Source of the DNA: Candidatus Aquidulcis sp.
GTDB taxonomy: Bacteria; Chloroflexota; Anaerolineae; Anaerolineales; UBA4823
Length of the DNA stretch: 58,437 nucleotides
Assembly (NCBI GenBank): GCA_020723385.1
Contig: DYIZ01000018.1
Coordinates: 1-58,437 of the forward strand
Reading direction: 5' to 3'
The translations under genes and the position numbers were made by a program. Positions 28,942 to 58,326 of this stretch are shown in pieces. The number at the start of each line of letters is the position of its first letter. Position 1 is the first letter of the stretch. The notes below the pieces were generated by a model. It had not been told where the DNA came from. It worked only from the letters and a program-made list of their open reading frames with translations, and did not search any database.

Positions 28942-30969
28942 TCAATATTCGAGCAGCGCCGTTATTTTAGCACGGATGCGCTCGACCGATGGTAAAACTG
29001 CGTCCATCATAGGGATATTGTAGGGTATGAGTACATCTGGCGTTGCCAGCCGCTCGATTGGGGCGTCCAGGTCGGTGAAGGCTTCAGCGGCGATGACCGC
29101 AGCAATTTCTGCGCCGAACCCGCCGGTGAGTGTGTCCTCGTGGACGAGGAGAACCTTCCCGGTTTTGCGGACGCTTTCGAGCACGGCAGACTGATCCCAC
29201 GGGCTGATGGTGCGCAAATCGAGCAGAGCGACGCGCCCCTCGAATTGGCGGGCGGCCTCCACGCAGCGGGGAACCATTGCCCCCCAGGTGACCACCGTCA
29301 GCGAGTCGCCCTCCGTGAGGTGGGCGGCCACCCCGAAGGGCAGGCCAAAATCGTCGCCGGGGTAGGGGCGGCGGCCTTCGGGCGTGTCGAGCAGGGCGCG
29401 GTGCTCGAAGAAGAACGCGGGATCATCGCCGCGCAGGGCAGTGCGCAGCAGCCCGACCGCATCTTCGGCATTCGATGGAAACGCCAGCCGCCAGCCGATC
29501 AAATGCGCATAGGCAGCTTCATTGGTGACGGAATGCCAGGGGTCGCCGGTCTTTTTGCCGAAGCCGACCGGGATGCGAACCACCACCGGCGCGGCGAAGT
29601 TGTTGGCCGTGCGCCAGCGCAGCGTGCCCAGGTCGGTGAGTTGTTCGTGGGCGGGGTCGGCGTATTTGCGGAACTGTATTTCGGGCACGGGCAGCAGGCC
29701 GGCCAGAGCCATGCCCACCGCGCGCCCGATAATGCCGTCTTCGTTGAGGGAGGTGTCGAAGACCCGTTCGACGCCGAAGCGTTTCTGCATATCGAGGGTA
29801 GCGCCATGCACGCCGCCTTTCACGCCCACATCTTCTCCGAAGACGAGCATGCGCGGATTGCGGCTCATTTCCACTTCGAGCGTGCGGCGCACTGCGTCGA
29901 GGAAGTTGATGCGCGGGCCGGAAGGGCGCGGATCGTTGGGGCCGGGCGTGAGCAGGGCGTTCTCCGGGCGGAGGCCGCCCTGCCGGGGCGCCGTTCCCCC
30001 GTACAATCGGTGAGTCGCGGCCGAGGCCGGGTCAGGCTGTGGGAGCGCCTCCGCCTCGCTGAGAGCGGCGCTTAACTCGCTCGCCACATCTTCTTCCAGC
30101 TTTTGCCACTCATCGGGTTTGAACAGAGCTTGCAAGCGGGGCAGGGGGTCACGCGCAGCTTCGTCGGCGCGGATTTCGGGGGATTTGTAAGCCTGGTCGT
30201 CAACGAAGGTGTGGCCGAGCAGGCGGGGGACGCGCAGCCGCAGCAGGCAGGGGCCTTCGCCGGAACGGACGTATTCGACCGCGCTACGGATGGACACCCA
30301 GGCTTCCGCGGGATCGCTGCCGTCGCCGTTGCGGGTACACAGCGGGCCGTAGCAGCTCAGGTTGGAGACGATGTCGCCGCCGGGGGTCTGGTAGATGGAG
30401 GGGACGGACAACCCGAAAGCGTTGTCCTCGATGAAAAAGAGCATGGGCAGGCGTTGGGTGGTCGCAACGTTGAGGGCGGCCCAAAAGCCGTTGGCGGCGA
30501 CGCTGCCCTCACCGCCGCAAGCCACGGCAATCGCGTTCTGCCATTCGGCCTCGCCGAGCACGCTGGCGCGGTAGCGGGCGGACTGCGCCCAGCCTGCGGC
30601 GGGGGTATACTGCGCGCCTACGTCGCCCGAGGCGGGCAGCAGGGTGGCGCGGCTGCGGCGCGGCAGGTTGTACATGACGCCGGTATCGCGTCCCATCGTC
30701 AACCCAACGGCGCGCGCCAGGCCTGAGCCGAGCGCTTCGACGACGGTAAGCCCGCAGGCCAAGGCAAAGGGGCGCGAGCGATAATAGGTGGTGGCGGCGT
30801 CGTGTGGGTGATCGAGGGCGTGCGCCAGCAGGACTTGCGCCAGCTCGTGACCCATAGATGAAAATTGATATTTGATCTTGCCCTGCGGGGTGAGGGTGTT
30901 CACTTCCAGCTCGTCGAGACGGCGGGAGAGGAGGACGGTGTGAGCGATTTGATTCCAGTTGGGGGACAT
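28942..30969 (-). CDS. Fused E1 alpha/beta subunit of 2-oxoacid dehydrogenase
   Basis: 675 residues joining both halves of a thiamine-diphosphate E1. Residues 1 to about 330 are the alpha part: GHELAQV, TYYRSRPFALACG, and the cofactor motif beginning GGEGSVAANG and ending EDN (Gly-Glu-Gly where most homologues have GDG). Residues about 350-675 are the beta part: INFLDAVRRTLEVEM, LVFGEDVGVKGGVHG, PVPEIQFRKYADPA, and a C-terminal transketolase domain (VALLDLRTISPWDQ, KVLLVHEDTLTGGFGAEIAA). Such fusions decarboxylate branched-chain 2-oxoacids or pyruvate for an E2/E3 complex. No E2 or E3 gene lies in the window. A TATCAGT-type repeat ends two bases before the start codon and no ribosome site is visible. 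Confidence 0.9.
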   Translation of the reverse strand: MSPNWNQIAHTVLLSRRLDELEVNTLTPQGKIKYQFSSMGHELAQVLLAHALDHPHDAATTYYRSRPFALACGLTVVEALGSGLARAVGLTMGRDTGVMYNLPRRSRATLLPASGDVGAQYTPAAGWAQSARYRASVLGEAEWQNAIAVACGGEGSVAANGFWAALNVATTQRLPMLFFIEDNAFGLSVPSIYQTPGGDIVSNLSCYGPLCTRNGDGSDPAEAWVSIRSAVEYVRSGEGPCLLRLRVPRLLGHTFVDDQAYKSPEIRADEAARDPLPRLQALFKPDEWQKLEEDVASELSAALSEAEALPQPDPASAATHRLYGGTAPRQGGLRPENALLTPGPNDPRPSGPRINFLDAVRRTLEVEMSRNPRMLVFGEDVGVKGGVHGATLDMQKRFGVERVFDTSLNEDGIIGRAVGMALAGLLPVPEIQFRKYADPAHEQLTDLGTLRWRTANNFAAPVVVRIPVGFGKKTGDPWHSVTNEAAYAHLIGWRLAFPSNAEDAVGLLRTALRGDDPAFFFEHRALLDTPEGRRPYPGDDFGLPFGVAAHLTEGDSLTVVTWGAMVPRCVEAARQFEGRVALLDLRTISPWDQSAVLESVRKTGKVLLVHEDTLTGGFGAEIAAVIAAEAFTDLDAPIERLATPDVLIPYNIPMMDAVLPSVERIRAKITALLEY

Positions 30970-30971
30970 GG

Positions 30972-31190
30972 CAGTAATCAGTTATCAGTGAGCAGTTGGC
31001 AGTTGACGGTTGGTAGTTGGCGGTTGACTATGAAGGGTGCGAAGCTCCCGCTGGAAGATAGACCGGCGGACTGTCGTCCACCTTGAGCAAGTATTGGGAT
31101 GGGCGCTATCTCGATGGCCATTTGCTTCCGCCGGTTGAACGTCCGGCGGATTGTTGTCCGCCTTGGGCAATTATTGGAATGGGTGCAAAT
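30972..31190. repeat. Intergenic repeat cluster (TATCAGT type plus 80-base direct repeat)
   Basis: 30972-31028 is a run of ATCAGT/CAGTTG/CGGTTGAC units. Its first 20 bases match 19 of 20 positions of the reverse strand inside leuS at 57570-57589. 31061-31109 and 31141-31190 form an imperfect direct repeat with an 80-base period. Each copy contains a palindrome of the GGCGGAC-N4-GTCCGCC type (31065-31082 and 31145-31162). No gene is supported in this 220-base spacer. Confidence 0.75.
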
Positions 31191-55661: not shown

Positions 55662-58326
55662 TCTTCGTCACAATATTCAATATCTTGCCAGGCACGTACA
55701 CCACGCGGGCAATCTCCCGCCCGGAGGTGAATTGCTGCACTTTCGGGTTGGTGAAAGCCAGCGATTGCACTTCGTCCTGGCTGGCTCCGGCGGGGACTTC
55801 GATTGTCGTTCGCACTCTGCCATCCACGGTGACGGGGATGCTGGCGATTTCGTCGCGTGCCAGCTCGGGATCGAACGCCGGCCACGGCTGTTGATGGATG
55901 CTGCCGGTATGCCCGGTGAGCTGCCACAATTCCTCGGTGATGTGCGGCGCGGCGGGGGCCAGAAGCACCAGCAGGGTTTCCAGCGCCCGGTGGTAGGCGG
56001 GCGTTTGCCAGTTCCCGGAGCGACGGGCTTCCCCGAGGGTGTTGACGAATTCCATCAGCGCCGAGACCATCGTGTTAAAGCGGAAGCTGGCGATGCGCTC
56101 CCCGACGCGCCGGATGGTCTGATGCCGCAGCTTTTCCAGCCCATCATCATCGGTCATCGGTTCACCGTCGCCGGTCTTCCGTCCACAGTCCTCGGTCATC
56201 TTTTCTGCATACAGATTCCACACCCGGTTGAGGAAGCGCCGCGCCCCGTTGATGCCCTCCGCACTCCAGGCAATATCCTGGTCGAAGGGAGCCATGAACA
56301 TCTCGTAGATGCGCAGCGCGTCGGCGCCGTAGCTCTCCACCATGCTGTCAGGCGTGATCACGTTGCCGCGGCTTTTCGACATGCGCTGGCCGTCCGGGCC
56401 GAGCAACTGCCCCTGGTTCATCAGCTTGCTGAACGGCTCGCGGAACGGGACGATCCCGGCATCGGCCATGACTTTGACCCAGAAACGGGCGTACAGCAGG
56501 TGCAGCACAGCGTGTTCTGCGCCGCCCACGTACAGATCAACCGGCGACCAGTAGCGCATGGCCTGGGGGTCGAAGGGGCCGCCGGAATAATGCGGGCTGG
56601 CGAAACGCAGGAAGTACCACGATGAGCAGGCGAAGCCGCCCATCGTGTCGGTCTCGCGCTGGGCGGAGCCGCCGCACTGCGGGCAGGTAGTGTTGACGAA
56701 TTCGGGCAGGCGCGCCAGGGGAGATCGTCCAGACCCGTCGGGCTGGAAATCATCCATGCGGGGCAGCAGCACCGGGAGTTGATCCTCGGGCACGGGAACT
56801 TCGCCGCATGCCGGGCAGTGGATGATGGGAATCGGCGTGCCCCAATAGCGCTGGCGCGAGATCAGCCAGTCGCGCATCCGGTATTGCACGGTGCGTTTGC
56901 CCATCCCGTTGGCCTCGATGAACTCGCCGATGCGCCGGATGCCTTCCTCGTTGGGCAGGCCGTTGAATTGGCCGGAATTGACCATAATCCCGCTGCCGGT
57001 GTACGCCTCGGTCAATTCCGTGGGAACGCCCACAATGTCATCTGCCGCCGTTGTAGAGAGGCCCGGCGGGGTAGAGACGCCCGGCGGGGTGGAGACGCCC
57101 GGCGGGGTGGAGACGCCCCGGCGGGGCGTCTCTACGGCCGGGTCTGGGGATATCACAACCCTCACCGGCAATTGGAATTTCCGGGCAAATTCGAAATCCC
57201 GCTGGTCGTGGGCCGGGACGCCCATCACCGCTCCGGAACCGTAGGATGCCAGCACGTAATCAGCAACCCAAACGGGCACGCGTTCACCATTCAACGGGTT
57301 CAGTACATACCCGCCGGTGAAGACGCCCGTCTTCGGGCGGCTTTCGGCCATGCGGTCTACCTCGCTCATGCGGGCCGCGGCAGCCCGGTAGGCTTCGACT
57401 TCGGCGCGCCTCTCGGGCGTGGTGATCTGGTTGACCAGCGGATGCTCCGGCGCCAGCACAAAGAATGTCACGCCGAAAATCGTATCGGGGCGAGTTGTGA
57501 AGCAAGTTATCCGTGAACTCCCGAACGAAGTTCGGGAGTGATCAGTTATCAGTAACGACTGTTCACTATTCACTGACAACTGATTACTGATCACTGATAA
57601 CTGATCACTGAATACTGGAAACTGGATCTCCACCCCTTCCGACCGCCCAATCCAGTTGCGCTGCATGGTTTTGATCGGATCGGGCCAGTCTACCGTATCC
57701 AGCCCGGTGATCAGCTCGTCGGCATAAGCGGTGATCTTGAAATACCAGGCCGGAATCTCGCGCTTGACCAGCCCGGTGTGGCCGCGCCAGCAAACGCCGC
57801 CTGTGGCCTCGTGGGATGAGAGTGTTGTCTGACAGGTGGGGCACCACCACTGCCAGTTGGTGTCACGGTAAGCCAGGCCGCGCTTGTACAGCATCAGGAA
57901 AAACCACTGCGTCCAGCGATAATATTCAGGGTTGGAAGAATCGATCTCGCGGCTCCAGTCATACGACGCACCGATGATCGTCATCTGGCGGCGATAATTG
58001 GCCGTGTTGCGGTCGGTGGTGACGCGCGGGTGGACGCCGCTGCGGATGGCGTACTGCTCCGCTGGCTCGCCGAAGGCATCCCAGCCCATTGGGTGGAGCA
58101 CGTTGTAGCCTTTCATGCGATAAAAACGCGAGATGACATCTGTCGGGACGTAATTCCGGCAGTGTCCGACGTGCAGTCCTTCACCGGAGGGGTAGGGGAA
58201 GAAATCCAGGCAGTAGAACTTGGGCCGGTCGCCGCCCTCCGATGCGTGATAAATGCCGGTTTGCTCCCAAATCTGCTGCCATTTGGGCTCGATGGTTTGG
58301 GGATGATAGGGGGAAATCATAGACAC
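55657..58326 (-). CDS. leuS: Leucyl-tRNA synthetase with three repeat-derived inserts
   Basis: 889 residues. HIGH box HVGH (52-55) after FPYPSGEGL; zinc-binding CPTC...C region near 155-180; the CP1 editing domain with FTTRPDTIFG and a GVPAHDQRDFEFA segment; WLISRQRYWGTPIP; KMSKS box as RMSKS near residue 648; anticodon domain with FRFNTMVSALMEF; and a C-terminal VDGRVRTTIEVPAGAS domain. It charges tRNA-Leu and edits misacylated norvaline or isoleucine. Three stretches do not belong to the family: about residues 237-270, 397-424 and 709-726. Each corresponds to repeat DNA at the nucleotide level. The frame stays open throughout, so the protein is probably functional with long loops at tolerated sites. 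Confidence 0.95.
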   Translation of the reverse strand: MSMISPYHPQTIEPKWQQIWEQTGIYHASEGGDRPKFYCLDFFPYPSGEGLHVGHCRNYVPTDVISRFYRMKGYNVLHPMGWDAFGEPAEQYAIRSGVHPRVTTDRNTANYRRQMTIIGASYDWSREIDSSNPEYYRWTQWFFLMLYKRGLAYRDTNWQWWCPTCQTTLSSHEATGGVCWRGHTGLVKREIPAWYFKITAYADELITGLDTVDWPDPIKTMQRNWIGRSEGVEIQFPVFSDQLSVISNQLSVNSEQSLLITDHSRTSFGSSRITCFTTRPDTIFGVTFFVLAPEHPLVNQITTPERRAEVEAYRAAAARMSEVDRMAESRPKTGVFTGGYVLNPLNGERVPVWVADYVLASYGSGAVMGVPAHDQRDFEFARKFQLPVRVVISPDPAVETPRRGVSTPPGVSTPPGVSTPPGLSTTAADDIVGVPTELTEAYTGSGIMVNSGQFNGLPNEEGIRRIGEFIEANGMGKRTVQYRMRDWLISRQRYWGTPIPIIHCPACGEVPVPEDQLPVLLPRMDDFQPDGSGRSPLARLPEFVNTTCPQCGGSAQRETDTMGGFACSSWYFLRFASPHYSGGPFDPQAMRYWSPVDLYVGGAEHAVLHLLYARFWVKVMADAGIVPFREPFSKLMNQGQLLGPDGQRMSKSRGNVITPDSMVESYGADALRIYEMFMAPFDQDIAWSAEGINGARRFLNRVWNLYAEKMTEDCGRKTGDGEPMTDDDGLEKLRHQTIRRVGERIASFRFNTMVSALMEFVNTLGEARRSGNWQTPAYHRALETLLVLLAPAAPHITEELWQLTGHTGSIHQQPWPAFDPELARDEIASIPVTVDGRVRTTIEVPAGASQDEVQSLAFTNPKVQQFTSGREIARVVYVPGKILNIVTKR
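56147..56200 (-). repeat. Repeat-derived insert 3 in leuS (linker before anticodon domain)
   Basis: Read on the minus strand as ATGACCGAGGACTGTGG and continuing to CCGATGACCGATGATG, it codes for TEDCGRKTGDGEPMTDDDG between the catalytic core and the anticodon-binding helices. A related copy is present at 55625-55661 just after leuS. Confidence 0.65.
57053..57135 (-). repeat. Repeat-derived insert 2 in leuS (18-base minisatellite plus palindrome)
   Basis: Four tandem 18-base units (GTAGAGACGCCCGGCGGG and variants) start at 57053, 57071, 57089 and 57107. The last runs into a near-perfect palindrome (GTGGAGACGCCCC to GGGGCGTCTCTAC) ending at 57135. On the coding strand this gives repeated GVSTPP residues in the editing domain. 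Confidence 0.85.
57517..57615 (-). repeat. Repeat-derived insert 1 in leuS (TATCAGT inverted repeat plus hairpin)
   Basis: Two adjoining elements. A hairpin has arms ACTCCCGAAC (57517-57526) and GTTCGGGAGT (57530-57539). A TATCAGT-type element has perfect 15-base inverted ends, TGATCAGTTATCAGT (57539-57553) and its complement (57593-57607). Part of it matches the intergenic repeat at 30972-30991 at 19 of 20 positions. It codes for SDQLSVISNQLSVNSEQ in LeuRS. Confidence 0.85.

Follow-up and report, generated by a model that had tools for sequence, protein, structure and literature searches.

Leucyl-tRNA synthetase (LeuRS) of Candidatus Aquidulcis sp. carries, in frame, an insert made of palindromic 7-base repeat DNA, and heptad repeats of several kinds fill the same turn of the enzyme in many genomes of the class. 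We consider it probable, at roughly 75%, that this insert is a copy of a palindrome dispersed in the genome and that the LeuRS turn has been filled repeatedly from each lineage's own heptads. The gene, LeuRS-B, lies in the window, by which we mean the whole 58,437-nucleotide stretch of DNA that was analysed. Features are collected in Table 1, where G numbers denote genomes and C numbers denote contigs of this genome.

Table 1. Window features, other genes of this genome with in-frame heptads, and genomes of the class with repeat-filled LeuRS loops
Feature	Location	Strand	Basis or remark
LeuRS-B, leucyl-tRNA synthetase, 889 aa	55657-58326	-	TIGR00396, 977 bits; ORF
Insert 1, 33 codons (F239-S271), heptad palindrome and hairpin, first turn of CP1 editing domain	57514-57612	-	alignments
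Facing heptad arms within insert 1 (CAGTNNN / NNNACTG units)	57537-57609	.	inverted repeats and arrays
10-base-arm hairpin ACTCCCGAAC GAA GTTCGGGAGT beside heptads	57517-57539	.	sequence
Insert 2, 28 codons (V398-T425), GTAGAGACG...CGTCTCTAC palindrome, 18-bp tandem copies	57052-57135	-	alignments
One-arm intergenic heptad array	30972-31030	+	2 nt upstream of ATG of minus-strand ORF 28942-30969
Second LeuRS	C80		in-frame heptads
DEAD/DEAH helicase	C51		in-frame heptads, within Pfam domain envelope
Alcohol dehydrogenase / Gfo-Idh-MocA fusion	C170		in-frame heptads
Histidine kinase	C88		in-frame heptads, within Pfam domain envelope
Hydantoinase A	C210		in-frame heptads, within Pfam domain envelope
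PurL	C223		in-frame heptads
RlmI-like methyltransferase	C190		in-frame heptads
FAD-linked oxidase	C183		in-frame heptads
HypF	C183		in-frame heptads
Heavy-metal P-type ATPase	C125		in-frame heptads, within Pfam domain envelope
Cytidylyltransferase	C72		in-frame heptads
PriA-like helicase	C221		one-arm array, 35-42 nt
Fe-S oxidoreductase	C233		one-arm array, 35-42 nt
Type III restriction protein	C98		one-arm array, 35-42 nt
TATCAGT-type loops	G000 (twice), G040, G073, G466, G293, G225, G299, G439, G136, G444
ATTCAGT-type loops	G214, G118, G348
GGAATTA loops	G256, G309
CAGGAGN / GTCAGNN loops	G270, G257, G208, G383
GTGGACA loop	G331
AATACCC loop	G226
CGTCAAT loop	G314
GATTTCG loop	G176
Palindromes without period 7	G092, G138

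A palindromic insert in the editing domain of LeuRS

An initial sequence-only reading had placed about 30 residues of in-frame repeat at 57517-57615, between GVEIQFPV and ITCFTTRPD. The insert is confirmed, with slightly shifted limits, as the 33 codons of Table 1, which follow GVEIQFPV and precede RITCFTTRPD. Alignment places a five-residue turn, EGKEV, at this position in the Thermus thermophilus enzyme, and the turn is likewise short, without the insert, in all eight B-type relatives that cover the site (G031, G022, G027, G015, G012, G001, G016 and G033). Thus, the residues are not shared by close relatives in ordinary, non-repeat DNA. The HVGH, MSKS and TTRPDT motifs are all retained in LeuRS-B.

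At the DNA level, the insert forms an imperfect palindrome built of 7-base units, in which a CAGTNNN arm faces an NNNACTG arm, with a hairpin nested in it. Of the structure first described as a 10-base-arm hairpin plus 15-base inverted ends, the hairpin stands, and the arms prove to be 17 nt long (57537-57553 and 57579-57595) and 94% complementary. As single-stranded DNA, the insert folds better than all of 200 shuffled sequences (z -6.5). An Rfam search of positions 56900-57800 at the gathering threshold returned no matches.

A structural model of the CP1 domain (288 residues, built from 59 sequences, the alignment using 58 of 79 usable relatives) has a mean pLDDT of 82.8, with 185 of the 288 residues at 90 or more. 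Model residues 54-63 and 200-225, which lie in or next to insert 1 and a second insert (insert 2, below), fall below 50. The best structural matches are LeuRS structures, including the isolated Streptococcus pneumoniae editing domain (4k47, TM 0.93 by its own length). Mapped in this way, as had been proposed from the sequence, insert 1 falls at a CP1 turn; the core fold is predicted to be kept, and in the model the inserts are loose excursions from it. The idea that the palindrome encodes a beta-hairpin was rejected, as the modelled strand reaches only the edge of the insert and is followed by low-confidence helix and coil.

The heptad repeat is dispersed through the genome

Searched genome-wide with at most one mismatch, CAGTNATCAGTNATCAG has 589 matches (289 + 300), and the reversed-pattern control has one. 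Within the window, CAGTTATCAGT at the same stringency has 8 matches versus 0.29 expected, and BLAST of a 109-base query against the genome returned at least 92 matches (40 of 127 candidate regions scored). The repeat thus occurs well beyond LeuRS, and the early description of dispersed palindromic DNA lying in frame within a conserved gene holds. The non-coding copy noticed at 30972-30991 is real and part of an array that extends to about 31030; the adjacent ORF encodes a 675-residue, dehydrogenase E1-like protein.

Most of the copies fetched from this genome pair a GTNATCA array with a downstream TGATNAC array, and runs of GTTATCA / TGATAAC are present, for example in elements L004 and L002. 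The number of units, their spacing and their variants differ from copy to copy, and no constant element ends were seen among the fetched copies. Six loci were skipped in one step of the analysis: five were duplicates read on the opposite strand, and one was the window copy itself. The genome has six Y1_Tnp matches, with no link to the repeats seen. The hairpin core CCCGAACGAAGTTCGGG was rejected as a dispersed family in its own right, with 8 matches at up to two mismatches versus 3 in the control; a degenerate copy occurs in one other gene, the cytidylyltransferase on C72, in the same setting.

A search of this genome and 80 relatives found exact copies of the repeat in 13 of the 81 and, among the 37 other genomes of the same family, in G014 alone. 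Four plasmid records match insert 1, two from Microcystis, one from Fischerella and one from Mycetohabitans.

Intergenic elements not spanned by an ORF (L002-L030 and L093-L107) occupy gaps between genes. Element ends lie near an ATG start in 26 of 70 cases and near a stop in 20 of 70, compared with 7% and 3% under random placement. A role as start-codon regulators was rejected, since stops are nearly as frequent at the ends and there is no preference for starts (P 0.46).

Heptad arrays are in frame in many other genes

Searching with peptides and reading fetched stretches of this genome brought to light 14 other genes of recognisable family that contain an in-frame heptad array. An open frame is present in each of the 13 in-gene elements that were scored versus 2 of 35 others, a contrast that is partly built in. 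In those 35 elements, which lack a spanning ORF, 2 of 210 frames are open versus 17.5% for shuffled sequence (elements of at least 40 nt, with gene-borne and duplicate loci excluded from the unspanned set). A very long, secreted-looking ORF on contig C124 (L096) holds more than one in-frame heptad array.

The arms differ in how readily they can be translated. For some variants, the CAGTNNN arm is stop-free in all three frames, with GTTATCA read as (SVISYQL)n and GTCATCA likewise. The facing NNNACTG arm produces TGA in each frame every three units, so that it persists within genes only if short or if another triplet, often TGT, has replaced the in-phase TGA. Insert 1 of LeuRS-B aligns with the C72 cytidylyltransferase insert over about 100 nt, hairpin included, and this common block suggests copying.

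A second palindrome family

LeuRS-B contains a second insert. The region spans 53 residues in the window protein versus 17-20 in six parsed B-type relatives, and in the alignment the stretch is short in all eight. Besides the LeuRS copy, loci of the GTAGAGACG...CGTCTCTAC family in the genome include L062-L067 and L072-L082. Of 17 other places examined (two of them 38 bp apart), 13 fall within ORFs of at least 200 aa, some of which are spurious in this GC-rich genome; 9 of 10 tested ORFs with the palindrome have Pfam domains.

The family is in frame in eight other recognisable genes. It lies inside a domain in HMG-CoA reductase, a CoxM-type FAD domain protein and heparinase. In a GAF histidine kinase, MetH, an LUD protein, a lipoyl/hexapeptide protein and an amylase, its position is between domains or next to one. 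In Mfd/TRCF, the palindrome occupies the very beginning of the open frame and may not belong to the protein. A-type LeuRS of many relatives (L045, L047, L051, L054, L060, L090 and L108) have about 100 extra residues at the place of insert 2. We rejected the identification of insert 2 as a GTAG-tagged REP, as its GTAG pairs with CTAC in GTAGAGACGCCCCGCCGGGGCGTCTCTAC and so sits in the stem rather than forming an unpaired tag.

A second LeuRS gene

The genome encodes a second LeuRS, LeuRS-A, which is 49-55% identical to the window copy by segment. LeuRS-A, too, bears a heptad insert at this turn. In six relatives (G001, G012, G015, G022, G027 and G031), the two divergent genes lie close together on a single contig, separated by about 0.1 to 1.7 kb (L108 and L109), whereas this genome has them on separate contigs. 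The suggestion that an essential gene had been invaded is left unsupported by this finding: because a second LeuRS is encoded, the window copy may be dispensable.

A rival reading is that insert 1 arrived by a short gene conversion from LeuRS-A, with no separate insertion. The DNA just before insert 1 is 80-84% identical to LeuRS-A, although the genes are 59% identical overall, and 23-73% identical to LeuRS-B's own relatives. However, the cluster of A-like residues in LeuRS-B is not significant at any of four window sizes (115, 436, 806 and 1595 of 2000 permutations), and the nested hairpin is absent from LeuRS-A and common to LeuRS-B and another gene. We regard such a conversion as possible but doubtful.

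It is extremely improbable that the insert is an artefact, either of a contig misassembled at the repeat or of LeuRS-B decaying as a pseudogene. The gene does lie close to a contig end (58326 of 58437), repeats can mislead assemblers, and a second LeuRS exists, but both flanks of insert 1 are of B type, no stop interrupts the 889 codons, and many other genomes and genes present a like picture.

The same LeuRS turn is filled across the class

The loop of the second LeuRS was searched against 396 genomes of the class, 362 of which had a match, and loops were read at the 30 best loci and in 20 further stretches, with unit names assigned by eye. At least about 23 of the 362 matching genomes carry a heptad loop by this reading, and the period-7 loops at the turn are built of about seven unrelated units (Table 1). 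What had seemed an odd single event instead involves two repeat families in frame in many genes of one genome, and a LeuRS turn filled in many genomes of the class.

Period-7 DNA (p<0.01 against codon shuffles) was detected in 26 of 46 expanded loops versus 7 of 600 control windows in LeuRS genes; 26 of 46 is not a rate, because the choice of loops was guided by their length or their resemblance to a heptad loop. Loops of at least 48 nt were scored, and the shorter TATCAGT-type loops of G439 and G444 were named by eye. Among LeuRS of named genomes from many phyla, one heptad loop (L223, Anaerolineaceae) was found in 80 loci, 65 parsed and 14 loosely read, with loops shorter than 17 residues counted but not displayed. 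Other GC-rich repeats are present in LeuRS loops of G061, G073 and G092 (L039, L032 and L167), giving peptides such as SPLPMGEG or SPVLRERGTGGEG.

On a 60-row LeuRS tree built without the loop columns, the TATCAGT-type state requires a minimum of 10 changes, and the presence of heptads a minimum of 9, with gains and losses not told apart. The loop states on this tree were judged by eye (G241 being set to 'none', although its loop scored as period 7), G136 is on a very long branch, and duplicate or partial rows were left out (L031_1, L108_1, L109_1, L040_2 and L037_2). LeuRS-B of the window and its eight insert-free relatives form a clade of nine with 100% support.

These patterns bear on whether the turn was filled repeatedly or once. 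Under a single old insertion, inherited vertically, the content would later have been overwritten by gene conversion with local heptads or by slippage. This could be envisaged because relatives share the site but differ in unit: the position is the same throughout, neighbours in families f12, f18, f45 and f53 have different units at that site, and G073, G256 and G309 have common flanking codons (ASD/ASE) around different units. However, LeuRS-B of this genome (G000) sits among eight relatives without the insert, G053 lacks a heptad at the turn despite belonging to the same genus as G040, and many LeuRS between carriers on the tree have a short turn. We consider a single old insertion unlikely.

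An adaptive role of the insert, for instance in adjusting editing or contacting a partner of LeuRS, would fit the recurrence at one turn that is near the TTRPDT editing motif in sequence. It is nonetheless very improbable, given that insert sequence and length turn over between relatives, that the insert is modelled at low confidence, and that many unrelated proteins contain these repeats in frame.

CAGT-type loop units match the units dispersed in the same genome

In each of the 10 genomes whose LeuRS loop is of TATCAGT type, CAGTNATCAGTNATCAG occurs as exact copies, numbering between 8 (G040) and 270 (G000). Across the class, 103 of 396 genomes have any exact copy and 43 of 396 have 8 or more. 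Taking genomes as independent, which, being related, they are not, this match would have a probability of 1e-6 for any copy and of 8e-11 for at least 8 copies, the latter cutoff having been chosen after the data were seen; within family f12, the probability is 0.003. Likewise, copies of CAGTNTTCAGTNTTCAG number 275, 127 and 124 in the three genomes whose loops are of ATTCAGT type and 0-19 in the 17 others tested. For CAGT-type units, the loop unit is thus the genome-wide unit. The GGAATTA unit is in small excess, with 8 and 3 matches versus 0-3; LeuRS itself accounts for 2 of the 8 and 1 of the 3.

The most copies were found in G276 (1428) and G261 (943), in both of which the loop-query match is weak; by this search, abundance alone seems not to fill the site. 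The LeuRS loop looks like a favoured landing place for each genome's own repeats. More tentatively, and with considerable doubt, the turn may be a true docking site in this class, at which a process that recognises the site, or short CAGT...ACTG seeds within its codons, would time and again install, and afterwards exchange, whichever heptad palindrome the genome is amplifying; the site would then stay conserved as its content changes. In this reading, the two unrelated palindrome families of the window's genome would act as invaders of proteins, with many in-frame copies.

How the turn may be filled

In the reading that we prefer, insert 1 would be a copy of a 7-base-unit palindrome that multiplied in this genome. 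Copies would be tolerated at permissive surface turns, of which the first turn of the LeuRS editing domain would be one, and lineages would repeatedly fill this turn with the heptad family dispersed in their own genomes. The copies probably came from other loci, by template switching, recombination between dispersed copies or other mobility, and slippage or gene conversion could contribute beside copying. The repeat was at first described as apparently mobile or copied. The composite block and the unit match suggest copying, and mobility is not supported, no transposase link or constant ends having been seen. Most copies are presumably neutral, and the enzyme probably works.

In one genome of a phylum other than that of Rickettsia, two palindrome families lie inside many conserved proteins, and an aminoacyl-tRNA synthetase loop shows which repeat has been amplified in a lineage. 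This offers a natural test system for the spread of short repeats, the gain of protein loops, and the growth of period-7 arrays by slippage versus copying.

Comparison with known repeat systems

In-frame palindromic repeats are best known from Rickettsia, where such elements lie within genes of presumably functional proteins, and TAACTGA-type heptads are known from intergenic DNA. The TAACTGA unit and the in-frame palindromes of Rickettsia are, therefore, known already. Heptads inside LeuRS, or these repeats inside Chloroflexota proteins, were not found among the open-licence literature matches listed.

The closest relative of the heptads in sequence, as far as the available portions of the source extend, is the TAACTGA heptamer repeat of Beggiatoaceae, a Thiocystis, Cyanobacteria and Bacteroidetes (MacGregor 2015, PMC4679880). 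There, the repeats are described as direct, with one inverted case, mostly intergenic, situated mainly at the ends of proteins where they are translated, and forming arrays just upstream of start codons in the Guaymas genome; the forward strand reads LITDN-stop and the reverse LSVISYQ without a stop. The word Chloroflexi is absent from those portions of the text. The unit here is the same, TAACTGA being a rotation of TGATAAC and seen in the runs of GTTATCA / TGATAAC, and it has the same reading. However, direct arrays are reported there, whereas arrays here face each other and lie in conserved domains of several proteins, one site has units that change between lineages, and start codons are not preferred.

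The GGGAATC heptamers of Xanthomonas and GGGGATT heptamers of Nostoc are, in the available text, arrays of 7-base units of variable length, some inverted and enriched intergenically, with polymerase slippage discussed as their cause (PMC4692102). The repeats here are likewise 7-base arrays, some inverted, and some of them lie in frame inside genes. GTAG-tagged REP repeats, stated in the accessible part of the source to be present in Chloroflexi (PMC3733652), resemble insert 2 as short GC-rich palindromes starting with GTAG; their tag is unpaired, whereas the GTAG of insert 2 is paired, and most examined copies of the insert 2 family are in long ORFs. MITEs have constant terminal inverted repeats, a target duplication and a cognate transposase; no constant ends were seen among the heptad copies here, and the six Y1_Tnp matches show no tie to the heptads.

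The resemblance to Rickettsia repeat elements, drawn from the sequence alone, is apt as an analogy, as palindromes lie in frame in conserved genes here too. The accessible part of one source likewise describes in-frame insertion of the Rickettsia elements in ORFs (PMC3733652). The likeness consists of in-frame insertion in genes for conserved proteins. The Rickettsia elements have one element sequence of set length, whereas those in this other phylum are made of a variable count of 7-base units, and at one and the same site the unit differs by lineage.
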